A stretch of DNA of 64,000 bases from Blastocatellia bacterium (GCA_026985075.1 JALSQX010000060.1:62001-126000), one strand, 5' to 3'; shown: positions 15,939 to 49,915, numbered from the stretch's first letter. Notes: generated by a model from the sequence alone, not told the origin. Made by a program: numbers and translations.

Positions 15939-15969
15939 CCCAGCGTCGCCTCGCGCCAGTATCCGCCTC

Positions 15970-18659: not shown

Positions 18660-18996
18660 GACTTGCCAGGAAAATCTCACCCTCGTCATTGAAGGAAACA
18701 CGTTGACCATCGAGTTGACCGTCATAGTGAATCTCACTCCCCATGACGCACGGTAAGCCAAACTCCCGGGCGACGATGGCCAAGTGAGACGTTGGTCCGC
18801 CCGCTGTGCAGATAATTCCTTTGATTTTGGGGAAAATGGGTGTAAGGGTTGTAGCCGAAGCGGAGGTCGTAAACACGATAGTCTCAGACAGATCTTTCTG
18901 CATCAACTCGAGAACATCTTGAATGCTCTGTACCGAACGGAGCACCCCAGTGCATCCCTTGCCTGAAGTGATTTCTCCGTGACCAATCTTGGTCAT
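18652..18996 (-). CDS. Phosphohistidine swivelling (mobile) domain protein
   Basis: 114 residues forming a single PEP-utilizer mobile domain. The phosphorylatable histidine is H71 in CTAGGPTSHLAIVAREFG. The surrounding pattern (KGIICTAGG before, LPCVMG after) matches PEP synthase and PPDK. In complete enzymes this domain carries phosphate between the ATP site and the PEP site; here it is a free protein. The ATG at 18996 is chosen for the strong site GGGAGGAGC just ahead; earlier codons in the frame are not conserved. A one-base frameshift could join it to the next gene, but even joined the ATP-grasp part would be missing. Confidence 0.83.
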   Translation of the reverse strand: MTKIGHGEITSGKGCTGVLRSVQSIQDVLELMQKDLSETIVFTTSASATTLTPIFPKIKGIICTAGGPTSHLAIVAREFGLPCVMGSEIHYDGQLDGQRVSFNDEGEIFLASHE

Positions 18997-23009: not shown

Positions 23010-23030
23010 AGAGAGAGACCTCCTACTTGT

Positions 23031-25115: not shown

Positions 25116-25222
25116 CAATACGATTCCCCCCTCCCCATAGAAATGAGCATCAACTTTACCGACTTAGAATGCCCTCTCCCATATTGATGCATCGCCTTCA
25201 CCTATGCACTAATAGCCTCTTT

Positions 25223-26380
25223 TCAGGGAGCACGGCTTACCGGAGAGAAGAAATCCCCCTCGGTGGTGGCCATGAATTGCCAGATCGAAGGAAGCGCACC
25301 CCGCTTCAACATGTGCTGAACCACTGGTCGCCCGACGGCTCGAAATGTTGCGCGTATCCGCTCACCCGCATCTACTCCAGCTACATCGAAGAATGACTTC
25401 ATATGATTGGCAAACAGGTCGATCCCATATTCAATCTTGTATCGCTGCGTCCAACGGGCGGCCTTCAAATACAGCTCATTCTCCGCCTCCGCCGCTCGGC
25501 GCGTGATCTCAGGAATCTCATCATCCGGAATGAGAACGATGCTCCCATCTTCTCGGCATCTCAATAGAGCACAGGCAACCACTCGAGAGGCATAGTCGGG
25601 CGGATCGATGAGAACACCCCCAAACAGGTCGAATTGAACATTCACGTCGCGAAGCCTCAAGGCTACAGCGAGATGAGGATAGAGATTCCATGTTTCGGTC
25701 ATCGCCCAGGGGAGATAGTCATTCTGTAGATCGGTGAACTCCCGAATAACGATCACCCCATCATCTTCCGTCTCATAAGGACCATGAGCAAACAGCCCAT
25801 CTCGTTGTTCGCCATGAAGAATGAACGCGTAGATTTCCAGTGTGGCCATCATACGACGCACTAACGCGTAACGTTCTGGGCTGCTCGGTGTCAAAGAGTC
25901 TCGGACAATCTTGACAATGGATTCCGGCAAGATGGGCTGCCGATGCGCATTCTCGATAGGCATGAGGTATCCGTCATTCCGGTAGCTGCGAGCCACGCGG
26001 CGCCAAAAATCGACTACGAAACATATTTGTTCATCTTCCTCTTCACTCGTTGACGTCTCCAACATCCATCCTGGATCCAACCGTCGCTGTTGGCGGGCAC
26101 CTAAATAACTACACATGAGAATACTCAAGGTGAGGTAATTGGGGCGGGAGCACAACCGCTTCATCCGCCAGCCGATCTCTTCGGGTGAAATGCGTTGGAT
26201 CAACTCCTTGAGCAAGGGATAGGCTGTCTGATACACGCACTCCCATCCCAGCGAGGATCGTCGGGGCACATCAAATAGGGTGGATCTCAACAATACACGT
26301 CGCTCTGAACGCATGAATGCTTTTTGACTCTCAGAAAACAACTTGATGCACTGATTTATCTGTTCGATATCATAATTCAT
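25223..26380 (-). CDS. Protein of unknown family, tandem paralogue A
   Basis: 385 residues, not recognised. Largely helical, no signal peptide or membrane segment. It shares many blocks with the next gene upstream: EEIGWRMKRLCSRPNYL, LGARQQRR, FVVDFWRRVARSYRND, a central AHGPY, IREFTDLQNDYLPW, and YGIDLFANHMKSF near the end. The pair must come from a duplication. The start at 26380 (ATGA overlap with the upstream stop) is chosen because it aligns with the start of the paralogue; an ATG two codons earlier is possible. Conserved H and W residues suggest a cofactor or substrate pocket, but I name no function. It lies between HyuA and the lipocalin-like gene. Confidence 0.75.
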   Translation of the reverse strand: MNYDIEQINQCIKLFSESQKAFMRSERRVLLRSTLFDVPRRSSLGWECVYQTAYPLLKELIQRISPEEIGWRMKRLCSRPNYLTLSILMCSYLGARQQRRLDPGWMLETSTSEEEDEQICFVVDFWRRVARSYRNDGYLMPIENAHRQPILPESIVKIVRDSLTPSSPERYALVRRMMATLEIYAFILHGEQRDGLFAHGPYETEDDGVIVIREFTDLQNDYLPWAMTETWNLYPHLAVALRLRDVNVQFDLFGGVLIDPPDYASRVVACALLRCREDGSIVLIPDDEIPEITRRAAEAENELYLKAARWTQRYKIEYGIDLFANHMKSFFDVAGVDAGERIRATFRAVGRPVVQHMLKRGALPSIWQFMATTEGDFFSPVSRAP

Positions 26381-27522
26381 GGACATCGTAATGGATAGTA
26401 AATCGGACCTTCCGTCTCAGCAATATGCTGAAGAATGAGAGGCGGTTCTCCCTCAACGAGCGCCTCAATATGCCTCATCGTGGTTTCTCGAAATCGCGCT
26501 CGCACCTCTTGATGAAACTCCCCATCGAGACCGGCTAAATCACCAAATGCTCTGAGCAGATTAGCATACAGCTCGGCTCCATATTCGATGCGTTGGCGAT
26601 CACTCCACTCCATGAATGTCCGATATAACGTTATTTGGATATCACCAGCGCGTTCAGCCGTCGCCCGCATTTGATGGATGGAAAGTGGCTGAATGATACC
26701 ATCACAAAAGGTGAACACGTTTTGTGCTCGAATCAACCCCTCATATTCTCGAGGTTCCGTTCGAAGTGTTCCAAAGAGATCGAACCGCAGCCGGAGATTG
26801 TGAACGCGCATTGCACGGATGATATTCGCATATGGCAATCGAGTTCCCTTCCCCGTCCAAGAGTAAAAGTCTTCTTGAAGCCCTACCAGCTCTTTGATGA
26901 TCAGTTGATCCCCCCCTGAGAGTGCATACGGTCCATGGTGAAAGACACCCACACGTGCCTCCCCATTCAGAACAAACGTGAATAGCTCAATCGTTGCAAT
27001 AGTCCGTCGAATCCACCGACGCTCATCATCGCTGTAATCAGAATGCAAGCAAGCCGCCACTTCGCCTACCGCTCGAGGGGGCAATATCGGGATGGTGAAT
27101 CCGGCCTCGTCAGGTAGTAGTTTCCTGTCATTTCGATAAGCGCGCACCACACGAGTCCAGAAATCGAGGATGAACGCTAACTCCCTTGGATCATCATCTC
27201 TTGCTTCACCTCGCAAAATTGCTTGTTGGCGACCATTAAAGTACCCGAGTAGAAGGGAATTCAAGTTGATGTAGTTAGGCAGTCCTCCCAGTCGCTTCAT
27301 CCTCATTCCCAGTTGCTCTGGCGTCACTCGTTGACATATGCGCTGCAGTAGCGCATACATGTGTTCGTAATAACAATAGCTACCTATAATCAATCGTCCA
27401 GGGAGATTAAAAAGGGGGGAGAATTGCCTCGATCTTTGTTGCTCGCGAAAAAAACGGCGAACGCTCTCGCCGTAGAGGTGAATGAGCTGATTCACTCTCT
27501 CCCGGTGTAACAGCAGAGTCAT
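26377..27522 (-). CDS. Protein of unknown family, tandem paralogue B
   Basis: 381 residues, not recognised, clearly homologous to the preceding product: EQLGMRMKRLGGLPNYI, YFNGRQQAIL, FILDFWTRVVRAYRND, FHHGPYALSGGDQLIIKELVGLQEDFYSW, and YGAELYANLLRAFGDLAG. The sequences differ enough that the two may have distinct roles or form a heterodimer. The start at 27522 aligns with paralogue A; an ATG at 27567 would overlap the upstream gene by 35 bases. No catalytic motif known to me is present. Being conserved as a pair inside a carboxylase/ETF operon, they are good candidates for new enzyme subunits. Confidence 0.75.
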   Translation of the reverse strand: MTLLLHRERVNQLIHLYGESVRRFFREQQRSRQFSPLFNLPGRLIIGSYCYYEHMYALLQRICQRVTPEQLGMRMKRLGGLPNYINLNSLLLGYFNGRQQAILRGEARDDDPRELAFILDFWTRVVRAYRNDRKLLPDEAGFTIPILPPRAVGEVAACLHSDYSDDERRWIRRTIATIELFTFVLNGEARVGVFHHGPYALSGGDQLIIKELVGLQEDFYSWTGKGTRLPYANIIRAMRVHNLRLRFDLFGTLRTEPREYEGLIRAQNVFTFCDGIIQPLSIHQMRATAERAGDIQITLYRTFMEWSDRQRIEYGAELYANLLRAFGDLAGLDGEFHQEVRARFRETTMRHIEALVEGEPPLILQHIAETEGPIYYPLRCP

Positions 27523-27532
27523 ACCCCAATCT

Positions 27533-28486
27533 TCAAATGGTGAACTGAAGGAGATCCGGCCGGTCATCGACAGTCCTGAAACTCCAATTCAAACATCCAT
27601 ATCCTTTCAATCCACGGCATTCATACTCTGCCATACTGAAAAGCATGTGGTCATGGCGGTGAAGCCACCAATGAGATGTATCGATGATTCCCAGAGGCCT
27701 GCCTCGAAGCTCAACGGAGCGTCCCCGAATATCCGTCAGAAGGGCCCGCACTATCTCGATGGATTTCCAGCGACGCTCGCTCCAGGTGATGTCTAAGCGA
27801 GCTGATTGGAGAACAGTGCGACTCGCGCCTTGATGAACATAACCATATAGCTGTTGCCGACCATCTATGAAGGTGAACAGCGCAGCATTGGTGACCAAAT
27901 CTGGACTGAACGGCGACCAAAGGATGATATAGCTTCGCAATTGAGTCCGAGCACCCCACCCCCACATATGGTCGCGCATTCCTAGAGCCGAGATCTCGAT
28001 CTGTTCGCCATCCAAACAAATCCACCCCCGATATTGCCCCATCTGGTCGAAATGCCGACTTTGTTCCCCCGATCTCGTTCGTTCCATCCACAGCCTCGAT
28101 TCAGCCCAACTGTAGGGAGCATGGAGCGCTTCGAATAATAAATCTCCCTGCAACTCCGAACTGTCGTAGCGCAACCGCCACCGGTGAAACGGCTCGATCA
28201 AGTCCAGCTTCAGTGGTCCGAAACAAAGACGCTCACTCCCAATATCACGTGGAATAGTGTAATCCATCTTCATGAACCGGTAACGCACGTTTCCACCTTC
28301 GAAAACATAACATGTGAGATCAGCAACTCCTCTGTTGGGAAACACGCCCTGATAGACCTGGAATTGTATTCCGACCGAGGGGTCGAAAAACTCAAAATAC
28401 CATGCCTCACGCCACCACTCTTCAGGTCCCACCGGATGAATGGAATCAGCGTTCTCCTCGATGCCAATGAGCGGGAATCTCGCCAT
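27533..28486 (-). CDS. CrtC/AttH-like lipocalin-type protein (paralogue 2)
   Basis: 317 residues, homologous to the product of 16830-17762. Shared blocks: SIHPVGPEEWWREAWYFEF, IPRDIGSERLCFGPL, DQMGQYRGWI, GMRDHMWGWGAR and LKGYGCLNWSF. The pattern is an all-beta protein with two related halves, as in hydroxyneurosporene-synthase-like proteins. Enzymes of that fold hydrate hydrophobic isoprenoids; other members are unassigned. Having one copy near each end of the same operon suggests two related substrates or a two-subunit protein. The ATG at 28486 lies 10 bases after the etfA stop. Confidence 0.65.
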   Translation of the reverse strand: MARFPLIGIEENADSIHPVGPEEWWREAWYFEFFDPSVGIQFQVYQGVFPNRGVADLTCYVFEGGNVRYRFMKMDYTIPRDIGSERLCFGPLKLDLIEPFHRWRLRYDSSELQGDLLFEALHAPYSWAESRLWMERTRSGEQSRHFDQMGQYRGWICLDGEQIEISALGMRDHMWGWGARTQLRSYIILWSPFSPDLVTNAALFTFIDGRQQLYGYVHQGASRTVLQSARLDITWSERRWKSIEIVRALLTDIRGRSVELRGRPLGIIDTSHWWLHRHDHMLFSMAEYECRGLKGYGCLNWSFRTVDDRPDLLQFTI

Positions 28487-28496
28487 CACACAATGA

Positions 28497-29483
28497 TCAA
28501 GCACTGCTTTCCTGTTTTAGCTCTTCGATTAAAACAGGGATGACACTTCGGTAATCTTCCACCACGCCGATATCTGCGACTTTGAAAATTGGCGCCTTGG
28601 GATCCGTATTGATGGCCACAATCGTTTTGGCTCTCGTGATCCCCACCAAATGCTGACTGGCACCGGATATTCCAACGGCGATATAAAGATCGGGAGCGAC
28701 TTTCTTCCCCGTTTGACCAATCTGCCAACTCATTGGAGCCCACCCGGCGTCACAGGCCGCCCGAGACGCCCCAACCGCACCACCGAGCAACTCAGCCAAC
28801 TCCTTTAACAAAAGGAAACCCTCTGGTCCCCCTAATCCTCTGCCGCCGCTGACGATGATCCGGGCCTCCTCCAATTTCGCGTCACTTGACTCTTCGACGA
28901 TTCGGTCGATGACCTTTGTTCGCCGTAACGATGGCTCAATCTCAATGGTGAGTCGATGCACTTCACCAGTAGTTTCACTGACGGCATTCAGTGGTTCAAA
29001 ACTCCGCGGCCGTAAGCATATGGTAACCGGAGGATTGTGAGCCACCAATATTGTCTCCGCCTTACCCCCATAGACTGGTTTCGTTATCTGAACATGGCCC
29101 CCACTCACACCTTGCAATTCCGTACAGTCGATCACCATTGCCGATTTCATTCTATAGGCGAGCCGAGGTGCTAATTCTAGACCTATCGAGTTGCCGGCAA
29201 AAATGCACACATGGGGATGCGCGACCTCGACCACGCCCTCGAGTGCCTTCAAATAAGGATCGGCCGAATACTCAACCAACTCGGGGTGATCAACCACAAA
29301 GACCTTCGAAGCTCCACACACTAAGACTTGCCGGCTCAGGGCGCAAGCACGGGGAGCGATCAAGGCAACGGCCCATTGCCCATTCAACTGCGAGGCTAAT
29401 CGTTGGGCCGCCCCCATCACCTCCTTCTCTGCGCGACCGACGGTGTCAGCTCGCGGTACGAGGATGGCAAGCACATTTTGCAT
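28497..29483 (-). CDS. etfA: Electron transfer flavoprotein alpha subunit
   Basis: About 328 residues. The C-terminal FAD domain is diagnostic: VSGGRGLGGPEGFLLLKEL, GASRAACDAGW, QIGQTGKKVAPDLYIAVGIS, GASQHL, IVAINTDPKAPIFKVADIG. The N-terminal domain is a Rossmann-like half (NVLAILVPRADTVGRAEKE). ETF carries electrons from acyl-CoA dehydrogenases to the quinone pool; the membrane partner is probably the FeS protein at 59191-61224. An ATG at 29483 is used, but a TTG at 29492 lies at a better distance from AGGGGAGATC. It is cotranscribed with etfB. Confidence 0.95.
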   Translation of the reverse strand: MQNVLAILVPRADTVGRAEKEVMGAAQRLASQLNGQWAVALIAPRACALSRQVLVCGASKVFVVDHPELVEYSADPYLKALEGVVEVAHPHVCIFAGNSIGLELAPRLAYRMKSAMVIDCTELQGVSGGHVQITKPVYGGKAETILVAHNPPVTICLRPRSFEPLNAVSETTGEVHRLTIEIEPSLRRTKVIDRIVEESSDAKLEEARIIVSGGRGLGGPEGFLLLKELAELLGGAVGASRAACDAGWAPMSWQIGQTGKKVAPDLYIAVGISGASQHLVGITRAKTIVAINTDPKAPIFKVADIGVVEDYRSVIPVLIEELKQESSA

Positions 29484-30602: not shown

Positions 30603-31766
30603 TCATCGTCCTAGTATGACGACACACGCTACTGAGCCTGGTCCGCCGAGATTATGAACGAGTCCCAGTTCGGCGCCGGGTACTTGTCGTGGCCCCGCTT
30701 GGCCACGAAGCTGAGTGACAATCTCGTAAATCATCCGCACGCCACTTGCCCCAACGGGATGCCCAAAAGACTTGAGTCCACCACTGGGATTCACCGGCAG
30801 ATCTCCTTTCAGCGTACTATGCCCTTCCTCAATGAAGTAGCGACCTTCCCCCTTCTTACAGAAACCCAGATCCTCATAATTGGTGATTTCAGTCCACGTG
30901 AAGCAGTCATGTACTTCTGCGAGATCTATCTCCTGTCTTGGATTTTTGATGCCGGCCATCTCATAAGCCTGCTGGGCAGCTAGTTTCGTCGATCGAAAGC
31001 CGATATAATCGAACGTCGGATCAAAGTATGGTTTCCCCGTCATGACCGCCAAACCAATGCCCTTCACGAAAACCGGATCATCACGAAATGATCGAGCCCG
31101 GTCAGCTCGACAGAGAATGGCCGCTGCCGCGCCGTCGGTCGTGGGACAGCAATCATACAACCCAAAGGGATAAGCGATGATCGGTGCGTTGAGTACTTGC
31201 TCCTCAGTCACCTCCCTCTGGAAGTGTGCCTTCGGATTCAATGCGCCATTATGATGATTCTTCACGGCCACCTTGGCCAACACATGGCGATCCATACTAA
31301 ACTCATGAAAGTACCGATTCGCCGCTAAGGCGAATATCCCGGGGGCCGTGGAGCCAGCATCAAGATAAGGATGAACCCCTTCTCGCCGGAGGCCTCGCAC
31401 GGGGCGATCTTTCAGCTTTTCAGCTCCGATCACGAGCACTATCTCATAGAGACCAGCAGCTATAGCCAAGCAGGCATTACGGAAGGCATCCGTTCCAGTA
31501 GCACAGAAATTTTCCACTCGTGTGATGGGTTTACCATATAGCCGCAGAGCATCAGCCAATGTAATACTCGCTTTCCCTCCACCAAACCCGGGAGAGAATG
31601 TGCCCAGCCAAGCGGCTTCTATGAGCTCAGGATCAATGCCCGCATCTTCATAAGCCATCTGAGCAGCTTCTACCATCAGGTCCTGCAGGCTGTGATCATA
31701 TAGATCGCCAAACTTCGTACACCCAACTCCTACGATAGCAACTTTATCCTTTAAACTCTCAACCAT
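30603..31766 (-). CDS. Thiolase (SCP-x type acyl-CoA acetyltransferase)
   Basis: 387 residues. All three thiolase active-site parts are visible: the nucleophile cysteine C88 in RVENFCATGTDAF, the histidine in AEVHDCFTWTEI, and GGLKSFGHPVGASGVRM. It resembles sterol-carrier-protein-x type thiolases, which cleave branched or bulky 3-ketoacyl-CoAs. Its start follows directly after the stop of the HMG-CoA-synthase-like/DUF35 fusion gene (TAAATG, with GGAGAGATAA). That suggests a multi-enzyme complex like the archaeal thiolase-HMGCS-DUF35 one. It is the last gene of its operon. Unlike the two thiolase-like proteins at 46.8-49.1 kb it looks catalytically complete. Confidence 0.92.
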   Translation of the reverse strand: MVESLKDKVAIVGVGCTKFGDLYDHSLQDLMVEAAQMAYEDAGIDPELIEAAWLGTFSPGFGGGKASITLADALRLYGKPITRVENFCATGTDAFRNACLAIAAGLYEIVLVIGAEKLKDRPVRGLRREGVHPYLDAGSTAPGIFALAANRYFHEFSMDRHVLAKVAVKNHHNGALNPKAHFQREVTEEQVLNAPIIAYPFGLYDCCPTTDGAAAAILCRADRARSFRDDPVFVKGIGLAVMTGKPYFDPTFDYIGFRSTKLAAQQAYEMAGIKNPRQEIDLAEVHDCFTWTEITNYEDLGFCKKGEGRYFIEEGHSTLKGDLPVNPSGGLKSFGHPVGASGVRMIYEIVTQLRGQAGPRQVPGAELGLVHNLGGPGSVACVVILGR

Positions 31767-33164
31767 TTATCTCTCCTCCGGACGACATTTCCAATAATAG
31801 TGGTGTATCCCTCTCCCTTCGTTAAGACGTCTCAAAGTCAACTCGACTGGCATGCCAATCCTGATCGATTCAGGCTCAATATCCGTCATCTGTAAATATA
31901 ACCGCCCACCATCGTCCAAATCAACTACAGCCATCACCGTTGGCGGTATGGGGGAGGGTGTGAGAGTATCAGTCGTAAAGGTAAACACCCGTCCCCGCCT
32001 CCCAAGTCGAACCTCTTTGAGACTCTCTGTACTCCGGCAAGCGATACAGACACGCGTCATCGGGAATTGCCGCGTGCCACACTCCTCGCACTGCGTGCCG
32101 TAGAGTCGAATGTTCTGCCTCTCCTCTCTCCCATACAGGATATTGGAAATCTCTAAATTGTCTTCGTGATGGCGAAAGAATTCTCTCGCCTTACGAAACA
32201 ATTCATAGGACTTGAAGTGAATCGCCCAGCTCACTTGTTCTTCGATGGGATGATCAACCTGAAATTGATCGATGTGATCGGTCACCTCAAAAAGGAGGGC
32301 ATCAGCGCCATCCCCGTATCCCACCAGCAGGAGTTTATCATTGGGACGCGCCTCTTCGAGAGCAGCACTCAACAGAAGGAATGGCATAGAGCTACCAGTT
32401 ATACCTATGTGCTCGAAGAACGTTCTCTGAATCTGATTGGGTTGGAAGCCAGCCTGAGCCGCAAGTTTCAGATGAGATTCGCGATCGACGGGCGGCAGGA
32501 TAAGCTTGTCAATCTCCTCGGGGCGGAGTCCCACCCCTTTCAGAAGTTTGGAGAGTGCTTTGATCACGGCTTCCTGATATCCTCGCTGGAAAGTGAATTT
32601 GGACGCGAAGGATGTTACTCGCTCATCTTTGTCTCGCCTGACGATATCCAAAAAATCATCATAGACTGTAGCGCGTCCTATGTACTTAGCAATGACTCGA
32701 TCGCGACCAACGACGATGGCTGCTCCCGCATCCCCAAAAATTTGCTCCTCCACGGATTCAGGAGGTGCATCCCTTACATCAGCAGCTGCGATAACGATAT
32801 TAGTCAGATCTGAGGCGGCCACACTATCGAGAGCACAACTGAGAGCAATAGTTCCCGAGCGCACGGACCCGCCAAAATCGGCCACGGTGATTCCATCATC
32901 AAGATCGCAGGCAGCCGCAATTAAGCCGGCATTCAGTTTCTCCAAGTAGGGAGCTGTAGTGGAGGCAAAAAAGAGGCCATGACAAGAAGATACGTACCTC
33001 AGCCCCCATTGGACGGCATGTGTCGCGAGCGTGAGCGAATCCTCATCAAAGTTCACGGCAGTCCGTTCCCCCGTGAGCGCTCGCATGCCAAAAGCAGATG
33101 CGATCATCGCTCGGCTGATCCGATGACGAGGAATATACACAGCATGCGCTGTAATACCAATCAT
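31767..33164 (-). CDS. HMG-CoA synthase/KAS III-like protein fused to a DUF35 domain
   Basis: 465 residues. Residues 1-~325 have the thiolase-like fold of HMG-CoA synthases (IPRHRISRAMIASAFG, FASTTAPYLEKLNA, EEQIFGDAGAAIVVG). Where the synthase has its nucleophile cysteine, this protein reads VADFGGSVRSGTIAL, with no cysteine, so condensation by the usual route looks impossible. Residues ~355-465 are a DUF35 unit with the zinc ribbon CEECGTRQFPMTRVCIAC, followed by an OB-fold that usually binds CoA. In archaea the three proteins form a channelled complex with thiolase; here two are fused and the third is the next gene. It may be a scaffold or use different chemistry. Confidence 0.8.
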   Translation of the reverse strand: MIGITAHAVYIPRHRISRAMIASAFGMRALTGERTAVNFDEDSLTLATHAVQWGLRYVSSCHGLFFASTTAPYLEKLNAGLIAAACDLDDGITVADFGGSVRSGTIALSCALDSVAASDLTNIVIAAADVRDAPPESVEEQIFGDAGAAIVVGRDRVIAKYIGRATVYDDFLDIVRRDKDERVTSFASKFTFQRGYQEAVIKALSKLLKGVGLRPEEIDKLILPPVDRESHLKLAAQAGFQPNQIQRTFFEHIGITGSSMPFLLLSAALEEARPNDKLLLVGYGDGADALLFEVTDHIDQFQVDHPIEEQVSWAIHFKSYELFRKAREFFRHHEDNLEISNILYGREERQNIRLYGTQCEECGTRQFPMTRVCIACRSTESLKEVRLGRRGRVFTFTTDTLTPSPIPPTVMAVVDLDDGGRLYLQMTDIEPESIRIGMPVELTLRRLNEGRGIHHYYWKCRPEER

Positions 33165-39712: not shown

Positions 39713-41623
39713 TTATAGCTTCGCAGCGAGATGCGCCCCTTGACTGACAGCATCTAATATCGTACCAATTCGAGCACAATCGCCAACACGATAGACTTTC
39801 ACAGGAAATGTTTCCTCCTCACAAAACGCCAGATCATCACTCGGGCGATATCCCATGGCGAGCACGACAGAATCACAGTGAATGTGCCGCTCGTGCCCGT
39901 GTTTGTCAGTGGCGACCACAGCAGTCTCCTTCACGCGCATCACCTTGTGCTTCGTCAAAATATTCACTCCCGCCTTTCGGAATTCATAATACAACCATCG
40001 ACGGGTAATCGCCTCAAGTCCCCTCCCAATATGGGATAGGAGCTCAATGATTGTAACCTGATGCCCATCATGAATCAATTGCTCAACCACATCACATCCC
40101 GTCCCCCCACCGCCAACCACTACGACCTGGCGACCCACCGCTACCCGTCGGAGGAGAATATCTTCAGCAATATGCACATGAGGCTGATCGTGGCCCGGAA
40201 TGGGTGGGACAACCGGGACACTTCCCGTTGCCAAGACGACGACGTCTGGCTCAAGCCCTAAAAGCTCGTCCTGGGTGAGATTCACCCCCATCTCCACTTT
40301 GATGTGATATTTCGCAATTTGATGGAGTAAATACTCGGTAAATCGATTGATCTCTTTCTTGGAAGGAGCGGCCGCTGAAACATGAAGCTTACCCCCCAGT
40401 CGATTATCTTTTTCGAACAGCAATACTTCATGGCCTCGATGTGCCGCCACCCATGCCGTCTCCAAACCAGCTGGTCCTCCTCCGACAATAACAACGCGCT
40501 TTCGCTTGAGCGCGGGCAGAATCTCGAAGGTGAACTCCTCACCCAATTCTGCATTGACGGTACATTTGGCCTCCAATGCCCTGGAAACGAAGTCCACACA
40601 GTAGTTACAAGCTATACAAGGTCTGATGTCTTTGATCCGATTCTCTCTTACTTTTTGAGCCCACTCAGGGTCGGCAATTAAACCACGCCCCACGGCAATC
40701 ATATCGGCCTTTCCTTCACGTAAGACGCGTTCGGCCACCTCTACATCATTCAACCGACCCACCGCAATGACAGGGATGTTTACCGCTGACTTGATTCTGG
40801 CAGCATCATTAGCCAGATACCCTTTGGGCATGAACATCGGAGCCATGATATAGTGCAAAGTTTGCCAATTGCCCGCGGACACGCTGAGCGAAGTCACACC
40901 TGCCCTTTCTAAAATTCGAGCGATCTCCACAGCATCATCCAATGTCAATCCGCCCGGTACATACTCACTCCCGGACAATCTGAACTGAATGGGAAAATCC
41001 TCACCAATGGTCTCTCGAATGCCATAGATGATCTCCAGCGGAAACCTCATACGATTTCCCAACGAACCCCCATACTCGTCCTCCCGTTGATTTGAGATCG
41101 GTGACATAAATTCGCACACTAAATATCCATGAGCACCATGAATTTCAACAAAATCAAAGCCTGCCTCTCGAGCGCGCCAAGCACCCGCAACGAACTCCCT
41201 CACCACATCCTGAATCTCGTCCACACTTAACACCTTGGGAATCGGTCCCTTGGGTGAAACAGGGATGGGGGATGGTGCCACGGGCGTGCCCAGCGTCGTC
41301 TGACGTCCCATGTGATTGAGCTGAATGCCTACAACTACCCCATACTTCTTAATCTCTCGCGCCAGCCTAGCCAACCCCTCAATATAGTGATCATCGTGAA
41401 TTCGTAATTCAGGCCCCACACCGAGAACATTCGGATCGACGATACAGTTTTCCACCACAATCATTCCCACGCCGCTCTGGGCTCGCCGCACGTAATAATT
41501 GATGACCCGGTCCGAGACCGTCCCATCTTCATGGGCGTAACCCATGCCCATGGGCGGCATCACAATGCGGTTCTTAACATGTAGACCACCCACCTCGATG
41601 GGTTCTAGGAGCTTCATATTCAT
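39713..41623 (-). CDS. 2,4-dienoyl-CoA reductase/Old Yellow Enzyme-type flavoprotein (FadH-like)
   Basis: 636 residues in three parts. An OYE barrel occupies residues 1-~360 (NRIVMPPMGMGYA, QLNHMGRQT, EIHGAHGYLVCEFMSP). A 4Fe-4S site follows in RPCIACNYCVDF and the later cysteine in EAKCTVN. A FAD/NAD(P) disulfide-reductase-like region begins VVIVGGGPAGLETAW and contains VVVVGGGGTGCDVVEQL. This matches NADPH-dependent 2,4-dienoyl-CoA reductase FadH and related enone reductases. It is the last gene of the large operon and would reduce a conjugated double bond. The start overlaps the IpdB-like stop (TGATG). Confidence 0.93.
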   Translation of the reverse strand: MNMKLLEPIEVGGLHVKNRIVMPPMGMGYAHEDGTVSDRVINYYVRRAQSGVGMIVVENCIVDPNVLGVGPELRIHDDHYIEGLARLAREIKKYGVVVGIQLNHMGRQTTLGTPVAPSPIPVSPKGPIPKVLSVDEIQDVVREFVAGAWRAREAGFDFVEIHGAHGYLVCEFMSPISNQREDEYGGSLGNRMRFPLEIIYGIRETIGEDFPIQFRLSGSEYVPGGLTLDDAVEIARILERAGVTSLSVSAGNWQTLHYIMAPMFMPKGYLANDAARIKSAVNIPVIAVGRLNDVEVAERVLREGKADMIAVGRGLIADPEWAQKVRENRIKDIRPCIACNYCVDFVSRALEAKCTVNAELGEEFTFEILPALKRKRVVIVGGGPAGLETAWVAAHRGHEVLLFEKDNRLGGKLHVSAAAPSKKEINRFTEYLLHQIAKYHIKVEMGVNLTQDELLGLEPDVVVLATGSVPVVPPIPGHDQPHVHIAEDILLRRVAVGRQVVVVGGGGTGCDVVEQLIHDGHQVTIIELLSHIGRGLEAITRRWLYYEFRKAGVNILTKHKVMRVKETAVVATDKHGHERHIHCDSVVLAMGYRPSDDLAFCEEETFPVKVYRVGDCARIGTILDAVSQGAHLAAKL

Positions 41624-42420
41624 CAACGCCTCAACATTCCCTCAACGTCGATCCGCTCCCGCAGCGTGCGGATCTCGTGGATCGTCGGCGGCTCGGTCTC
41701 AGGGACCGATTCCGGAACAATGAGTTCAAATCCCGTATTTTCCACCACCTGATCAACGGTAACCCCAGGATGAACAGACTTGAGCCGCATTCTCTTAGAG
41801 GTCGGCTCGAAATCCATAATACAGAGCGGCGTGATGCAATAGATAGGACCATTGCCCGGAATACCCAACTTTCGGCGACCATCAGCTCCCCCTTCTCCCC
41901 AACCGATTGTTGAGATGAAGTCACATTGCTCAACGAAAATACGCCGATCATGAGATTGGACATACAGATAGTAGCGATCCACGTAGTGGGCCATGGAAAG
42001 GGTCCCTACAGCCCCCGGCCCACGGAAATCGAGTCGCTTATAATCCTTTCCTACGCCGATGAGATTGGAGTTTCCGTACTTGTCGATTTGCAACGCGCCC
42101 ACCACGAACATATCCGACACCAATCGAGGGTTCTCCTGGAAATCATCGTGGAAGACATAGGCCTCTGCCCACTTGGCCGGGCGAAAATCGGTCACTGTAT
42201 AAAACGGTTCCATCTTGGGTTCTTTGATAAGGTTGGTGAATGTCATCACCACATACAATCTGACATTCGGGCAGTAGAGTAAATGGGCCAGTAAGATTCC
42301 AGCCCGCGGCACGTGGAGGCCCGCACCTACAGCCACACGTTCTCCATCACGCACTTGATGAGCGATGAATGAGGCTATTAACTCTTTGGTCGTGAAATCG
42401 GTGGCATATTCTTTCGTCAT
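41623..42420 (-). CDS. IpdB-like CoA-transferase-family beta subunit
   Basis: 265 residues. Conserved: SFIAHQVRDGERVAVGAGL, VGALQIDKYGNSNLIGVG, FRGPGAVGTLSMAHYV and KSVHPGVTVDQVVENTGFELI. These match IpdB and the second half of the fused protein at 33.2-34.9 kb (same KSVHPGVxxxxVxxNTGFELI signature). It forms a pair with the next gene upstream. In actinobacteria the IpdAB pair hydrolyses the C ring of a steroid-derived CoA ester; here the substrate is unknown. The ATG at 42420 is used; a TTG at 42432 overlaps the previous stop and is an alternative start. Confidence 0.88.
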   Translation of the reverse strand: MTKEYATDFTTKELIASFIAHQVRDGERVAVGAGLHVPRAGILLAHLLYCPNVRLYVVMTFTNLIKEPKMEPFYTVTDFRPAKWAEAYVFHDDFQENPRLVSDMFVVGALQIDKYGNSNLIGVGKDYKRLDFRGPGAVGTLSMAHYVDRYYLYVQSHDRRIFVEQCDFISTIGWGEGGADGRRKLGIPGNGPIYCITPLCIMDFEPTSKRMRLKSVHPGVTVDQVVENTGFELIVPESVPETEPPTIHEIRTLRERIDVEGMLRR

Positions 42421-42428
42421 ATCTTCGA

Positions 42429-43328
42429 TCAATACTCGTGAAGACTAATAAGCCGCTTGATGCCGATGACCTCGAGGTAGTCGGCGTGCGTCTCTGGTTC
42501 CATGATGTACTTATGGAGATACGCCTCAAACGGACGACGATCTCCTTTCTTCGCATAGGCGTTCGCAGCCGCTACATACTCACGAATATGCTCCTCATCT
42601 TCAATATAATAGCCGGGAGCGGCGAATGGATGGGAACCATAAGGAGCTCGGACAATGGCATCGGCTCCGTAAATCGATGTGGCCAACGGGTTCTTCCGGA
42701 CTTCTTCATTAGGGATAATCTTTTCTACTTGAACGATTGTTTTCCCGGCCGCCCGCCACATGGCCCGATCGCCGAACCCGGTGCCGATATGTTGAACATT
42801 ACCATAGGGATCAGCGTGGGCAGCATAGATGAGCGCTATTTCAGGCTTGATGGCAGGAACAGCTAACAATGGTTCCCCGTTAATCGGATCGGTGAATACC
42901 TTCAGGTCGGGATTGACTTGGGGAAAGGATGTCCCAATACCTGCTTTCCAGGGCGTGAATGGTAAGCCCTGAGCCGCCGCGCGGAGCGCACAATAGAACA
43001 TTCCTTCGTCACACTCCCACACATCGATTTCTCCTCGCTCAGCAGCAACGCGGAAGAGCGGAGCGATGGGACAATAGTGTTCGCCTCCCATGTATGCCGT
43101 CACGAGCTTCTTCACGCAGCCAGCTCCGATGAGGAGATCAAGGTCCAAGCCTCCCGAGGCTGGCCCAACGACCGTTAAATCTTTCACACCTCGCCTGATG
43201 ATCTGGCGAACGATGGCCATGGGATGACTGGAATTGATGAACCCGCCAATGGCGATGGTCATGCCATCGCGGATCATGGCGGCGGCTTGGCGTTCGTCGA
43301 TGATGAGGCTCTTGCGTTCTGGGATCAT
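42429..43328 (-). CDS. IpdA-like CoA-transferase-family alpha subunit
   Basis: 299 residues. Blocks: DGMTIAIGGFINSSHPMAIV, SGGLDLDLLIGAGCVKKLV, GEIDVWECDEGMFYCALRAAA, and DPYGNVQHIGTGFGD. The acidic stretch ECDEG lies where IpdA has its catalytic glutamate. It forms a complex with the IpdB-like product of the gene that follows. Its start is one base after the stop of the flavoprotein gene. Two sets of these proteins in one window (split here, fused at 33 kb) suggest two ring-opening or CoA-transfer steps. Confidence 0.88.
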   Translation of the reverse strand: MIPERKSLIIDERQAAAMIRDGMTIAIGGFINSSHPMAIVRQIIRRGVKDLTVVGPASGGLDLDLLIGAGCVKKLVTAYMGGEHYCPIAPLFRVAAERGEIDVWECDEGMFYCALRAAAQGLPFTPWKAGIGTSFPQVNPDLKVFTDPINGEPLLAVPAIKPEIALIYAAHADPYGNVQHIGTGFGDRAMWRAAGKTIVQVEKIIPNEEVRKNPLATSIYGADAIVRAPYGSHPFAAPGYYIEDEEHIREYVAAANAYAKKGDRRPFEAYLHKYIMEPETHADYLEVIGIKRLISLHEY

Positions 43329-44746: not shown

Positions 44747-45898
44747 TTATTGTCGAAAGCCGAGAGTATATTCGGCAATCAGCGCGCGATGGATTTGATT
44801 AGTTCCCTCAATGATCTGAAAGACTTTGGCATCGCGATAGTACCGACTGACCGGGTATTCGGGTGAACAGCCATAAGCGCCAAAGATCTGCACGGCATGA
44901 GTGGCGGCCATGAGAGCGACATCCGTGGCCACCATCTTGGCAATGGATGCTTCTCGGCGCGCTCGCTCCACCCCTTGATCTTTGAGCCAAGCGAGCCGAT
45001 AGGTGAGAAACCGGGCACTTTCGATTCCCGTCACCATGTCAGTGATCATTGATTGAATGAGCTGAAATCGCCCGATTGGTTGATCGAAGACGATCCGGTC
45101 TCGGGCATACGTGATGACCTCGTCCAAGCACGCCTGAGCCATCCCGACAGCGCGCGCAGCGACGCCCAAGCGACCATTCTCGACCGCACACATGGCCACT
45201 TTAAACCCCTCACCTTCAGCCCCGACGCGGTTTTTCGCTGGCACACGGCAATCTTGAAACACGATATCGCCAGTGCAGAGAGGACGGAATCCCAGCTTAT
45301 TCTTGTAAGGGTGGAACGACATGCCCGGCGTATCCCGCTCGATAATGAAGGCACAGATCCCTTTATGCTTGAGACGACGATCGAGCGTGGCGAACGTCAA
45401 TACCCAATCGGCCACATCGAGGAAACTGATCCATGCTTTGCTCCCGTTGAGGACATACTCATTCCCATCACGCCGAGCCGTCGTACGCATTGCGGCGACA
45501 TCAGTTCCTGAGCCAGGTTCAGTCACGCCAGTGGCGGCGAAGGCCTCGCCGCGAGCCAGGGGTCGAAGATATTTTCGTTTCTGCTCCTCCGTGCCATATC
45601 GCAAAATCGCCGAACCCGCCAGGCCACTGGGAAATGAGAGCGCGCAGCCGATGATTTGGCATACGCGCGAGATTTCCTCGATGATGAGCGTGTAGGTCAG
45701 ATAATCGAGCCCAGCGCCACCATACTCGGGTGGGACCACGCCTCCCATGTAGCCGTGTTTAGCTGCCTCTTTGACGAGTTCGATGGGAAACCGCTCCTGC
45801 TGATCGTACTCCATGACATGAGGTGCGATCTCCCGCTGAGCGAACTCGCGCACGGCTTTCCGGATCTGTTGCTGTTCTTCGCTGAGACTGAAATCCAT
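44747..45898 (-). CDS. Acyl-CoA dehydrogenase
   Basis: 383 residues. FAATGVTEPGSGTDVAAMRT and LNGSKAWISFLDVADWVL form the active-site loops. YPVSRYYRDAKVFQIIEGTNQIHR near the end contains the catalytic glutamate (IIEGTN) expected of short/medium-chain enzymes. It starts MDFSLSEEQQQIRKAVREFA, the standard opening. It should introduce a 2,3-double bond in an acyl-CoA and pass electrons to ETF. It lies between the DUF35 genes and the CrtI-like flavoprotein. Confidence 0.95.
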   Translation of the reverse strand: MDFSLSEEQQQIRKAVREFAQREIAPHVMEYDQQERFPIELVKEAAKHGYMGGVVPPEYGGAGLDYLTYTLIIEEISRVCQIIGCALSFPSGLAGSAILRYGTEEQKRKYLRPLARGEAFAATGVTEPGSGTDVAAMRTTARRDGNEYVLNGSKAWISFLDVADWVLTFATLDRRLKHKGICAFIIERDTPGMSFHPYKNKLGFRPLCTGDIVFQDCRVPAKNRVGAEGEGFKVAMCAVENGRLGVAARAVGMAQACLDEVITYARDRIVFDQPIGRFQLIQSMITDMVTGIESARFLTYRLAWLKDQGVERARREASIAKMVATDVALMAATHAVQIFGAYGCSPEYPVSRYYRDAKVFQIIEGTNQIHRALIAEYTLGFRQ

Positions 45899-45918: not shown

Positions 45919-46356
45919 CTATGTGAGGGGAGCGAAGTGAGAAATGGCAAGAATGCTCGCGGGACGCTCATCGCGCCATACAGCCCGAACGCGGGTGACC
46001 CTCTCCACCTCAGAGGGATCAACGTCACCGATGAGATGCACCAGATTCGTATCGGCCCCGTCAAGTCGAATCAATCCTAAGATGAGTGGTGAACGATCCG
46101 GATGTTCGGGCAAGGGGCGTTGTATGATAGTATAACTTATCAGTTCCCCCAGAGGAGGTAACTGACACCACCTGTCGATGCCCCGCCAGCAACGTCCGCA
46201 GAAATTGAGCGGTGGAAGATAAACTCGACCACAAGATGCGCAACGGGTGGCCCAGATCTCACCTCGGGCCAGCCCTTCCAAGAAGCGAGTCAACGCTCGC
46301 CCTGCTGTGTACATGAAGGGAATTTTAATCCTCTGATGCACAACCCATTCATCCAT
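45919..46356 (-). CDS. DUF35 OB-fold/zinc-ribbon protein (second of two)
   Basis: 145 residues. The zinc ribbon is CASCGRVYLPPLNFCGRC (about residues 38-55), followed by an OB-fold with LGLIRLDGADTNLVHLIG. DUF35 proteins bind acyl-CoA and work as partners of thiolase-like proteins, for example ChsH2 with the aldolase Ltp2 in steroid side-chain cleavage. It follows the other DUF35 gene by one base. With two DUF35 and two thiolase-like genes, a pairwise arrangement is likely. Confidence 0.9.
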   Translation of the reverse strand: MDEWVVHQRIKIPFMYTAGRALTRFLEGLARGEIWATRCASCGRVYLPPLNFCGRCWRGIDRWCQLPPLGELISYTIIQRPLPEHPDRSPLILGLIRLDGADTNLVHLIGDVDPSEVERVTRVRAVWRDERPASILAISHFAPLT

Positions 46357-46357
46357 T

Positions 46358-46831
46358 TCATTTCCCTACGAGGCGAAAGTATTTAATGTCGTGATGCAGC
46401 GAGCCTGTACGCGGCTCACGAAAGACGGCTTTAACGCGTTGCCCCACGCGCAGTTTCTTTTCATCCGTTTCATCCACGAAGTGATAAATACTCGTTGAGG
46501 CCCCATCGAGCCGGATAATGGCAAATCCATAGGGCACAGGCCGCTGCTCACCTGTCATAGGGTCAATGAAGGGAAGATGAACCACAGTACAGCCGACAAT
46601 AATCCCTTCATCGCTCAAAGGAACCCAATCCTTCAACTCCTTATAACAGATCCCGCAGACCGGGCGGGGCGGCAGATACACGCGGTGGCAACCAGAACAA
46701 CGCATACCCATGATACGCCCAGCCTCTTTCAATTCGGTGAAGAATCGGGTCGCCAATTCACCAGCGGCATAGTGATATTCAATATCCAAGAGATATTGGA
46801 CTCGTTGTGTCTCGTCGTCCTTTTTAGTCAT
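46358..46831 (-). CDS. DUF35 OB-fold/zinc-ribbon protein (first of two)
   Basis: 157 residues. The zinc ribbon CSGCHRVYLPPRPVCGIC lies at about residues 44-61, then GCTVVHLPFIDP and FAIIRLDGASTSIYHFVDE of the OB-fold. The N-terminal helix (ELATRFFTELKEAG) is typical of DUF35 proteins that bind thiolase partners. Its ATG overlaps the stop of the thiolase-like gene (ATGA), implying equal production with it. It is paralogous to the next DUF35 gene and to the tail of the fusion at 31.8-33.2 kb. Confidence 0.9.
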   Translation of the reverse strand: MTKKDDETQRVQYLLDIEYHYAAGELATRFFTELKEAGRIMGMRCSGCHRVYLPPRPVCGICYKELKDWVPLSDEGIIVGCTVVHLPFIDPMTGEQRPVPYGFAIIRLDGASTSIYHFVDETDEKKLRVGQRVKAVFREPRTGSLHHDIKYFRLVGK

Positions 46832-47988
46832 AGGTCTCGACTCAAAATCATCACATCGGTCCAGGCATTCCCACCATATCCTGTAGCTAAGGCTGTCCGG
46901 ACGCCATCTATCTGACGTTTCCCCGCTTTACCCATAACCTGCAGGGCTGCCTCAGCCACACGAATGAGCGCCGTGGCACCAATTGGATTCGTAGACAGTA
47001 CACCACCAGAAGGATTCACCGGTAATTCTCCTGTCATCTCAGTCACACCCGCATCGATGAGTTTCCCGCCCTCGCCCCGCTCGCAAAATCCCAGATTCTC
47101 ATACATCGCCAGTTCGGCGAACGAGGCAACCTCATAAATTTCAGCCACGTCGAGCTCCTTGCGCGGATTAGTAATTCCCGCGTAAGCATAAGCCCGCCGT
47201 GACGCAGCAACTTGACTCCGCATGGCCGCAAGCCGCTTCGGACTATCTCCCATGTACTGCTGCTCATGTGCCGTCGCTACAGCTTTAATCCAAGCTGGTC
47301 GAGGAGCCAACTGCTTGGCGCGTGATTCTTCGGCGAAGACGACGGCACAGGCCCCGTCCGACTGAGGGCACATGTCTAACAACTTGACCGGGTAGGCCAG
47401 CATGCGAGACTTCAACACATCCTCAACGGTGATATCAGGCATCTGCAGATGAGCATACTCATTGTTGCACGCATTCCGTCGAGCTTTAACGGCGACCTTG
47501 GCTGCTTGTTCCTCAGTCACTCCACTGTCATGTATGTATGTGCTCGCCATAACAGCGAAGTTACCGACAGCACCGGCCATGATCGCTCGTTCCCAAATGG
47601 GATCTCCCACGGTGGTGATCGCCGTCTGTGTGTGTCCCTCCGATTGCTTTTCAAAGCCGATAGCCAACACGACATCATAGATACCGCTCGCCACGTAGTA
47701 ATATGCGGCGATGGCCGTTGTGGTCCCCACCGTGCCTCCAGTATTGAATTTCACTGACGGCTTCAAGTACCCCCCCCATCCTTCAACAGCCCAGAGCTCG
47801 GGGAACAAGAATCCCTCGAATGGCTCCATATTGCCGATCACCACGGCATCTATGTCCTTCATGCGAATATCTGCCTCTTCCAATGCTCTGGTGACTGCTT
47901 CAGTGATGAGCTCGCGGACATTCACATCACGACGTTTCGCTCTATGTTTCGTCTGTCCCGTAGAAATGATGGCTACTCGTCTAGGCAT
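46828..47988 (-). CDS. Thiolase-fold protein lacking thiolase catalytic residues (Ltp2 aldolase-like)
   Basis: 386 residues, lipid-transfer/SCP-x thiolase family. Where thiolases have the cysteine (compare NFCATGTDAF at 30.6 kb) this protein reads FNTGGTVGTTTA. Where they have the first histidine it has AEIYEVASFAEL, with tyrosine. In the GHP loop it reads STNPIGATAL. This pattern matches Ltp2, a retro-aldolase in steroid side-chain degradation that uses tyrosines. A retro-aldol cleavage of a hydroxyacyl-CoA is therefore more likely than thiolysis. It is cotranscribed with DUF35 genes, as Ltp2 is. The start at 47988 is 6 bases after the next thiolase-like stop. Confidence 0.85.
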   Translation of the reverse strand: MPRRVAIISTGQTKHRAKRRDVNVRELITEAVTRALEEADIRMKDIDAVVIGNMEPFEGFLFPELWAVEGWGGYLKPSVKFNTGGTVGTTTAIAAYYYVASGIYDVVLAIGFEKQSEGHTQTAITTVGDPIWERAIMAGAVGNFAVMASTYIHDSGVTEEQAAKVAVKARRNACNNEYAHLQMPDITVEDVLKSRMLAYPVKLLDMCPQSDGACAVVFAEESRAKQLAPRPAWIKAVATAHEQQYMGDSPKRLAAMRSQVAASRRAYAYAGITNPRKELDVAEIYEVASFAELAMYENLGFCERGEGGKLIDAGVTEMTGELPVNPSGGVLSTNPIGATALIRVAEAALQVMGKAGKRQIDGVRTALATGYGGNAWTDVMILSRDL

Positions 47989-47993
47989 ATTCT

Positions 47994-49127
47994 TCACTCG
48001 CGTCGCAAAATAACAACACTTTGATTCTGCCCACAAATTCCGCCCGCCCCATGAGCCAGAGCAGTTTGTGCTCCGTGAACCTGATGCTCTCCAGCCTGGT
48101 CAGTCAATTGAAGATAAGCTTCCACAACGCGCACCAATCCGCTCACGGTGACCGGGTTACCACAGAGCGGTCCCCCAGAAGGATTGATGGGCAACCGTCC
48201 GCCGATCTCACAATCTCCGCGAGCCAGCATATCTTGAGGGGCCTCGCTCAATCCGAGTGCCTCCATAGCCATCAACTCCTCGTAGGCATAGCGGGCCGAG
48301 ATTTCAGCCACATCGATCTCATGCGCGGGATATTCAATGCCGGCCATACGGTAGGCTCGGGATGCGGCTTGGCGCAGGGCTTTCGCCTCTCCTAGTTCTC
48401 GATCCGTCCAATAGGCATCCGTCGCATTCCCCATCCCAATGATAAAAACGGGATGATCGGTGACGGTTCGAGCCTTTGATTCGCTGGCCAACAGGAGAGC
48501 ACAGGCTCCATCTGACTGGGGAGCTGCTTCCAGTTCGTGGATAGGATCGGCGAGGATGGGCGAGTTCAAAACATCGGTTATGGTGAAATCCCCGGCTCGC
48601 TGCGCAAAGGGATTTTTCTTCGCATGCCGATGATTTTTCACCGCTACGGCGGCGATATCCTCAGCCGCGAGCCCTCTTAGCCTCATGTACCGCCGCGCTT
48701 GCAAGGCCGCCGCCGTCACATCGTCTAATCCTAAGTGGCGTTGGGTAAAAGGATCGAACATCAGATTCGTAATGGCATGCGGCGTGCCCTCGGACTCCTT
48801 GCAGTGAGCCACAACAAGAGTCAGCGTGTATTCGCCAGACATGATTCGTGCCGCTCCATAGAGCAGCGCTTGAAGGCCATCGGCAGCAACTTTGGCCTCG
48901 GCATTTAAATACCCTCCGACCACTTCGTTGATCGTCATTCCCGAAATCGTCCGGCCATCCCAGGCATCCTGTGATGCCGTGACAATGCTCCTGATCTCTT
49001 TCATCGAGACGCCGGTCTTATGAAGCAGCTCTCGTACGACCATGTACACGAGCTCATTGATAGCCAGCGAGGCTATGCGCTCCTCAAACCGGGTTTGCGC
49101 CACTCCGACGATACTGACTTTTGTCAT
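47994..49127 (-). CDS. Second thiolase-fold protein lacking catalytic residues
   Basis: 377 residues, related to the following gene. The cysteine position reads EAKVAADGLQALLYG, the histidine region AEISARYAYEELMAM, and the GHP loop CGNPVTVSGLVRV, so all three thiolase residues are replaced. It keeps the family frame: a C-terminal INPSGGPLCGNP and ALAHGAGGICGQNQ. It is likely the partner of the other thiolase-like protein, either as a second aldolase-type subunit or as a non-catalytic one. Its ATG overlaps the enoyl-CoA hydratase stop. Each of the two might bind one of the two DUF35 proteins. Confidence 0.83.
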   Translation of the reverse strand: MTKVSIVGVAQTRFEERIASLAINELVYMVVRELLHKTGVSMKEIRSIVTASQDAWDGRTISGMTINEVVGGYLNAEAKVAADGLQALLYGAARIMSGEYTLTLVVAHCKESEGTPHAITNLMFDPFTQRHLGLDDVTAAALQARRYMRLRGLAAEDIAAVAVKNHRHAKKNPFAQRAGDFTITDVLNSPILADPIHELEAAPQSDGACALLLASESKARTVTDHPVFIIGMGNATDAYWTDRELGEAKALRQAASRAYRMAGIEYPAHEIDVAEISARYAYEELMAMEALGLSEAPQDMLARGDCEIGGRLPINPSGGPLCGNPVTVSGLVRVVEAYLQLTDQAGEHQVHGAQTALAHGAGGICGQNQSVVILRRE

Positions 49128-49915
49128 CGTCCCTTCCATCGCGGCTCTCGCTTCTCCAAAAATGCGGAAATCCCTTCCCGCGCATCTTCAGAGAGGACTG
49201 CCTTAGTGCAGTATTTCTTCTCCATCTGCAACCCCAACATCAAATCGACATCGAATGATTCAACCAAACACTGCTTGATCGCCTGCAAGGCAACAGGTGC
49301 TTGCCCGGCCAATCTCTCGGCGAAGGATACAGTTTCCTCAATCGTCTTGTCAGGGGGACAGGCTCGCGTGACGAGTCCAATCTGTTCGGCGCGCGTTGCG
49401 TCTAATCGCTCGCCTGTCATCATCAACTCAGCCGCGCGTTCTCGTCCAATCAACCGCGGCAGTCTCTGCGTTCCACCTCCACCAGGAATAATCCCCAGGT
49501 TGATCTCCGGTAATCCAATCCTCGGCTCACCTGTTGACATGAAGCGAAAATCTAAAGTGAGGACAAACTCACAGCCACCGCCCAATGCATGACCGGTGAT
49601 CGCCGCAAGTGTAGGTTTCCTAATGCGTTCGATGCGATTGAATGTGGTGTGAACCGTGTCAATCTTCTGCTCGATAAACTCGCGTTCAAACCGATAATTC
49701 TTCATCTGTTTGATATCGGCTCCGGCCATGAAGATCTTTTCCAAGCCGCTGAGGAAGACAATAACCCGGGTTGATTCATCAGCATCCAGCTGTTCACTCA
49801 CCCGCACGAGTTCATCGTAGAGGTCGTTATCAAGAGCATTAACGGGGGGCTTTTTAATGGTTACACGCGCAACCCCGCCTCGCTTCTCTACTCGTAAGAA
49901 TGCGTACTCTGACAT
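49124..49915 (-). CDS. Enoyl-CoA hydratase/isomerase (crotonase family)
   Basis: 263 residues. FMAGADIKQMKN supplies the oxyanion hole, GHALGGGCEFVLTLDFRFM and LPEINLGIIPGGGGTQRLPRL follow. Glutamates are present in both catalytic positions, so hydration of 2-enoyl-CoA is likely. In this operon it would make the hydroxyacyl-CoA that the aldolase-type thiolase-fold proteins could cleave. The start overlaps the amidohydrolase stop by one base (TAATG). Confidence 0.93.
   Translation of the reverse strand: MSEYAFLRVEKRGGVARVTIKKPPVNALDNDLYDELVRVSEQLDADESTRVIVFLSGLEKIFMAGADIKQMKNYRFEREFIEQKIDTVHTTFNRIERIRKPTLAAITGHALGGGCEFVLTLDFRFMSTGEPRIGLPEINLGIIPGGGGTQRLPRLIGRERAAELMMTGERLDATRAEQIGLVTRACPPDKTIEETVSFAERLAGQAPVALQAIKQCLVESFDVDLMLGLQMEKKYCTKAVLSEDAREGISAFLEKREPRWKGR

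Follow-up and report, generated by a model that had tools for sequence, protein, structure and literature searches.

An A-B-DUF35-DUF35 gene module with Ltp3/Ltp4-like thiolase-fold proteins in a Blastocatellia bacterium: a candidate carbon-carbon lyase

The quartet and the closest described systems

The thiolase-fold proteins Ltp3 and Ltp4 have reportedly been known since 2012 from knock-outs in sterol degraders, in work attributed to Wilbrink. In the naming used for Mycobacterium tuberculosis, ltp4 is Rv3522 and ltp3 is Rv3523, and Rv3521 adjoins them. Both genes are reported to be essential for C24-branched sterol side chains (PMC6273163), and a review terms Ltp3-Ltp4 a heteromeric aldol-lyase (PMC6678751). 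Each of the two known thiolase-fold aldolases, Ltp2 and Sal, is a homodimer that has one DUF35 partner; a tyrosine is the mutagenised base in both, and replacement of Sal Cys304 by Ser, Ala or His abolished activity (PMC12329534). Here, we analysed a 64,000-nucleotide stretch of DNA (the window) from the 5.2 Mb genome of a Blastocatellia bacterium (GCA_026985075.1, JALSQX010000060.1:62001-126000; positions are counted from its first letter), in which two thiolase-fold genes, called A and B, stand together with two DUF35 genes on the minus strand. A and B are Ltp3/Ltp4-like, that is, of a kind known by genetics, here with separate DUF35 genes and in a non-sterol setting. We propose, with moderate confidence, that the four genes encode one heteromeric carbon-carbon (C-C) lyase of the Ltp3/Ltp4 type, in which B would be catalytic and A a pseudo-subunit, and whose substrate would be β-branched and not a ketosteroid.

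A, the Ltp4-side subunit predicted to be non-catalytic, spans 47994..49139 (381 aa); a second in-frame ATG lies at 49127, which is where A ended in a preliminary description made from the sequence alone. B, the Ltp3-side subunit and predicted catalytic partner, spans 46828..48036 (402 aa counted from a TTG) and is about 33% identical to A. Since residues 1-16 of B are modelled with a pLDDT (predicted local distance difference test) below 50 and codon 17 (47988) is an ATG, the true start is probably at 47988, which would place it 5 nt after A. The first 4 nt of DUF35-1 (46358..46831) are shared with the end of B, and DUF35-2 (45919..46356) follows after a gap of 1 nt. Both DUF35 proteins have zinc-ribbon and OB domains scoring above the Pfam cut-offs, as well as a C4 zinc motif (C45xxC-x10-CxxC in DUF35-1 and C39xxC-x10-CxxC in DUF35-2).

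Fold, active-site residues and phylogeny

A and B both resemble structures of the thiolase superfamily far beyond chance (E 8e-37 and 6e-44). Their AlphaFold models (pLDDT 90.8 for B and 94.8 for A) superpose on thiolases with Z of about 54-55 and align over nearly their full length to SCP2-type thiolases and to the Ltp2 and Sal aldolases. VIA-align to Ltp2 gave Z 47.2 for B (root-mean-square deviation 2.3, 367 residues aligned) and Z 45.5 for A (2.1, 356 aligned); to Sal, the value was 46.5 for both. The thiolase machinery itself is gone. When catalytic SCP2-type thiolases (6esq, 6hsj and, from the window, the intact thiolase at 30603-31766) serve as the reference, the nucleophilic Cys is replaced by Gly in both proteins, B reads YEVA and A reads SARY in place of HDCF, and the His of GHP is Asn in both (GNP in A), so that all three thiolase residues are missing. 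The preliminary description had named two thiolase-fold proteins without thiolase residues, accompanied by two DUF35 proteins, and this stands; the motifs that it quoted are found letter for letter in B (FNTGGTVG, AEIYEVAS and STNPIG) and in A (EAKVAADG, AEISARYA and CGNPVT).

A profile alignment places B Tyr301 exactly on Tyr294 of the Ltp2 YDHF motif, which corresponds to the Sal Tyr302 site; window A has Ser there. The Ltp2 His296 site is Val303 in B and Arg in A. At the Ltp2 Tyr344 site B has Asn350/Pro351 and A has Asn; Asn350 lies at, or at most one residue from, the GHP-His/Ltp2 Tyr344 site, and the alignment of the loop around it can be shifted by one residue, with no Tyr in either placement. 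Judged from the sequences, the difference between the two sets of motifs matters, as the tyrosine is kept in B only.

Could A and B be ordinary catalytic thiolases that were misread? The NCBIfam name for such proteins is thiolase domain-containing protein, and true thiolases are among the closest folds. The nucleophile Cys, however, is missing from 96 of 96 B proteins, where the position is Gly, HDCF and GHP are lost, and the proteins form a separate clade, which leaves this explanation with practically no probability. The analysis further suggests that a large number of proteins carrying the annotation 'thiolase domain-containing protein' are not thiolases.

The phylogeny was built from 73 sequences. 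The A clade (support 100/99) and the B clade (100/98) are sisters, and together they are separated from both Ltp2/Sal and the catalytic thiolases with support 100/99; the tree is unrooted, so loss of the thiolase Cys in A/B and in Ltp2/Sal could be one event or two. Actinobacterial proteins were recognised as Ltp4 or Ltp3 through the NCBIfam families PRK07937 and PRK08313, through the Rv naming and through position near steroid genes. We take PRK08313 to be Ltp3 and PRK07937 to be Ltp4 on the basis of length and gene order. Proteins of Nocardia and Tsukamurella pass these two families, and the Tsukamurella pair lies within a steroid cluster that also encodes a steroid 3-ketoacyl-CoA (coenzyme A) thiolase. 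Ltp4 of Nocardia, Tsukamurella and Streptomyces falls within the A clade and their Ltp3 within the B clade, while window A and B are separate from the actinobacterial sub-clade. The simplest reading is a single old A/B duplication followed by existence as a unit. One odd pair (L058_2) was left out of the tree; the second A-B pair of a Desulfobacteraceae locus (L058:12715-15129) lies outside both main clades and is possibly an early offshoot of the A/B duplication.

The preliminary description had suggested a retro-aldolase complex with the pattern of Ltp2. The remodelled folds, the DUF35 partners and the position off the thiolase branch agree with it, but the tree rules out Ltp2 as the nearest kin, since A and B group with Ltp3/Ltp4. 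The tyrosines of Ltp2 are likewise conserved in part: Tyr294 is kept in B (95 of 96 B proteins) and lost in A, Tyr344 is found in neither protein, and the His of YDHF is Val or Pro in B.

Conservation of the module and roles of the subunits

We scanned named genomes and obtained 80 loci with 83 B genes; because these loci were chosen as the best matches to B, pairing was measured for its near relatives. A lies within 1.5 kb of B on the same strand in 79 of the 83 cases, and A comes first in 78 of these 79 pairs; two of the four unpaired B genes begin less than 80 bases from a contig end. The A-B pair is accompanied by exactly two DUF35 domains in 68/83 cases, in 31 of them as a single fused protein; the fused DUF35 proteins of Tsukamurella and Streptomyces have two OB domains (Pfam). 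Paired loci were found in Actinomycetota, Chloroflexota, Myxococcota, Thermodesulfobacteriota, Pseudomonadota, Acidobacteriota, Spirochaetota, Bacillota and Kiritimatiellota, and archaea also carry them. The A and B trees have mirrored sub-clades (r 0.80, against a maximum of 0.25 after shuffling, a control that leaves shared ancestry in the value). Among named genomes, the quartet is matched most closely by a Terriglobia metagenome-assembled genome (Acidobacteriota; 78% for B), and five genomes from another family of the same taxonomic order have the same quartet order and flanking genes. A tree of the DUF35 proteins hints at two recurring types, with support too weak to assign them to A or B. 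The quartet is thus a conserved module, of which Ltp3/Ltp4 is one branch, and the roles of its subunits can be tested in proteins from other organisms.

In comparison with the actinobacterial Ltp3/Ltp4 system (Rv3521, Rv3522 and Rv3523 in M. tuberculosis), the quartet shares the sister clades, the A-then-B order and the two DUF35 domains, and the Ltp3 side has the same Tyr and Asn as B. The actinobacterial DUF35, however, is one fused upstream gene, whereas two separate downstream genes are found here; the base site is His in Ltp4 and Ser in window A.

As the A-B-DUF35-DUF35 arrangement recurs as a module, the two copies of each partner most likely form one heteromeric complex rather than serving two specificities. 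The preliminary description had offered two specificities or an unusual heterotetramer. The former finds no support in a quartet conserved as one unit, and the latter is hardly unusual, given its recurrence in bacteria and archaea and its match to the Rv3521-Rv3523 (ltp4-ltp3) arrangement.

Within this module the two subunits are conserved differently. Across the B family, the Tyr301 site is Tyr in all but one of 96 proteins and the Asn350 site is Asn in all 96; the position of Ltp2 His296 and Sal Cys304 is Pro in 89, Val in six and Ala in one, so that the catalytic Cys of Sal (YDCY) is found at this site in 0/96 B proteins. The base position of the A family (n=92), in turn, is His in 44, Ser in 30, Tyr in 11, Cys in four and other residues in three. 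Since the B residues are near-invariant while the A site varies, B has the appearance of an enzyme, and A that of a partner with a site that drifts from lineage to lineage. As 11 A proteins, including that of a second quartet in the same genome, have the Tyr, A may be active in some lineages.

These data also bear on the possibility that A and B are two separate homodimeric aldolases, each with one DUF35, for two different substrates. Such an arrangement would resemble that of Ltp2 and Sal, both homodimeric and each with a single DUF35 (PMC12329534); moreover, the A line retains well-conserved positions of its own, and its Tyr-bearing members would fit as well. However, A and B stand side by side in fixed order at almost all loci, the DUF35 proteins are fused in 31/83 cases, the two trees mirror each other, the base position of window A is occupied by Ser, and ltp3 and ltp4 are both reported essential for branched side chains (PMC6273163). 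We therefore regard two independent homodimers as distinctly improbable.

The second quartet lies on contig 22 (45450-47764; L005:6941-10286), where a diverged A-B pair stands between two DUF35 genes in the order CoA ligase - acyl-CoA dehydrogenase - SCP2-domain carrier - DUF35-A-B-DUF35 - MaoC hydratase. Its A protein reads YDAF at the active site.

Proposed reaction, substrate and gene context

For the single heteromeric lyase that we favour, the following mechanism may be proposed. A and B would form a heterodimeric thiolase-fold core, each with its own DUF35 on the outside, as in the α-β-β-α complexes Ltp2-ChsH2 and Sal-Shy. By analogy with Ltp2 and Sal, B Tyr301 would take a proton from the β-hydroxyl of the CoA-bound substrate, and the Cα-Cβ bond would then cleave. 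The resulting thioester enolate would sit in the old thiolase oxyanion pocket, with B Asn350, which replaces the GHP His, as the candidate ligand; the products would be an acyl-CoA and a ketone or aldehyde. A would probably be a structural or substrate-shaping pseudo-subunit, because the base is missing from it and its active site drifts. The analysis thereby predicts the catalytic subunit and two key residues.

Both known aldolases share part of this design. Ltp2-ChsH2 (PDB 6ok1), like the quartet, combines a thiolase fold and DUF35 with the absence of a nucleophilic Cys, and the base Tyr of its YDHF is kept in B; it differs in being a homodimer of another clade, with His296 and Tyr344 that are missing from A and B. 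The bile-acid aldolase Sal-Shy (PDB 9myr) has the same fold, a DUF35 partner and a base Tyr as in B, and its Gln352 places an amide side chain close to the GHP-His position, as does B Asn350; in contrast, its catalytic Cys304 is Val/Pro in B, and the zinc site of its DUF35 is C3H1 instead of C4. The archaeal thiolase/HMG-CoA (3-hydroxy-3-methylglutaryl-CoA) synthase/DUF35 complex (6esq) and the benzoylsuccinyl-CoA thiolase BbsAB (7pxp) are alike in fold and DUF35 partnership and are among the best structural matches. However, the Cys/His/GHP machinery of 6esq is intact, and A and B, at 93 and 140 bits, stay far below the BbsB cut-off of 750, the BbsB/BbsA equivalog scores not being reached.

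Several points weigh against the proposed enzyme. Neither of the known proton donors, Ltp2 Tyr344 and Sal Cys304, is present in B, which makes the proton donor the weakest point of the model, and B also has Pro or Val in place of the Ltp2 oxyanion His296. Both proteins miss the NCBIfam cut-offs (B 413.6 versus 514 bits for PRK08313, A 166.3 versus 419 for PRK07937) and are therefore Ltp3/Ltp4-like but outside the curated subfamilies. The odd pair L058_2 blurs the split between the A and B clades, the pairing figures cover near relatives of B only, and the mirrored trees may partly reflect shared ancestry. Finally, our literature search gave no assay or structure of any Ltp3/Ltp4 protein.

The missing donors could also mean that the quartet is no aldolase. 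It might catalyse another acyl-CoA reaction (C-C hydrolysis, decarboxylation, or aldol or acyl-transfer condensation) or be a non-catalytic scaffold for the proteins encoded at 30603-33164, a Cys/His-intact SCP2-type thiolase and an archaeal-type HMG-CoA-synthase-like protein fused to DUF35. Other DUF35 complexes perform different chemistry (PhlABC, HMG-CoA synthase), and the intact pair belongs to the same conserved gene block. On the other hand, this pair is missing near the quartet in most relatives' loci, no nucleophilic Cys remains for acyl transfer, and the strictly conserved Tyr and Asn of B favour catalysis over scaffolding. We consider this explanation unlikely, though it deserves to be kept in mind.

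For the C-C lyase, the gene context fits a β-hydroxyacyl-CoA substrate. The four genes belong to a tight minus-strand run of ECH - A - B - DUF35-1 - DUF35-2 - acyl-CoA dehydrogenase. The enoyl-CoA hydratase/isomerase family protein (ECH, 49124..49915, minus strand), which overlaps the A start by 16 nt, is a candidate supplier of the β-hydroxyacyl-CoA, and the acyl-CoA dehydrogenase (44747..45898, minus strand), 20 nt past DUF35-2, is a candidate for the upstream step. Within 6 kb of the quartet, among the 48 relatives with enough flank, a hydratase is present in 29, a ligase in 33 and a 3-hydroxyacyl-CoA dehydrogenase in three. When the β carbon is tertiary, as it is in C24-branched sterols, a retro-aldolase is required. 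The substrate would probably be such a β-branched (tertiary β-hydroxy) acyl-CoA, made by the adjoining dehydrogenase and hydratase, for which ordinary oxidation and thiolysis would be impossible.

A sterol side-chain enzyme acting on C24-branched sterols, as proposed for actinobacterial Ltp3/Ltp4, must also be considered here, for A and B share clades with Ltp4 and Ltp3. A CoA-transferase-like alpha/beta pair of the same conserved block (41623-43328) has among its nearest solved structures glutaconate CoA-transferase and the steroid ring-opening IpdAB type (6con, 6co6). However, a search of the genome for KstD (3-ketosteroid dehydrogenase) found none, the best match (26 bits) covering the FAD (flavin adenine dinucleotide) motif only, the surroundings are not a sterol cluster, and window A and B fall outside the actinobacterial sub-clade. 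A sterol role is thus very improbable. As the genome has no KstD, the substrate is probably not a 3-ketosteroid, and with an acyl-CoA dehydrogenase and a hydratase adjoining the quartet we infer a non-steroid β-hydroxyacyl-CoA. As to the CoA-transferase-like pair, the catalytic-Glu stretch of its beta subunit reads VVMT (VESG in 1poi_B), the transferase Glu being gone, so the pair is probably not a transferase.

The proposed lyase points to an uncharacterised C-C cleavage by which soil and anaerobic bacteria and archaea would break branched compounds. More tentatively, and with rather less confidence than we attach to the lyase itself, it might represent a third active-site design among thiolase-fold aldolases, with a Tyr base and an invariant Asn and without Cys, second Tyr or His. 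It would be an obligate heteromer of catalytic and pseudo-subunit that has been passed on as a unit among bacteria and archaea, many of them from lineages known for anaerobes, and would cut β-branched acyl-CoAs. In the present genome, the ketone product may feed nearby conserved carboxylase-like and CoA-ligase genes, which would provide an oxygen-independent route past a β-methyl block. From gene content, our guess at this route is a retro-aldol step yielding a methyl ketone that would be carboxylated, activated and thiolysed.

The conserved block also has CoA ligases. A hydantoinase A/B (acetone-carboxylase-type) pair lies at 20724-25118, and its B protein has an acetone-carboxylase-gamma-like domain at the end; the pair is about 77% identical in five relatives, adjoins the block where the contig shows it, and resembles caprolactamase too. 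Adjacent to it, also in relatives, stands a lone phosphoenolpyruvate (PEP)-utilising-enzyme C-terminal (TIM-barrel) domain (17775-18761) without the usual other domains. A link of this domain to a 25-hydroxysteroid kinase was considered and dropped, and papers on stigmasterol and 25-hydroxysteroid kinase gave no aldolase lead. At 25223-27567, neighbouring genes encode proteins of 387 and 396 aa that have no Pfam match, and each protein cross-matches the other's homologues in relatives; by this sequence comparison they are an unnamed tandem paralogous family. Two DUF7065/DUF7064 proteins (16830-17762 and 27533-28504) belong to the same catabolic block, and a cobalamin riboswitch (95 bits) is located at 15960-16188 on the minus strand.

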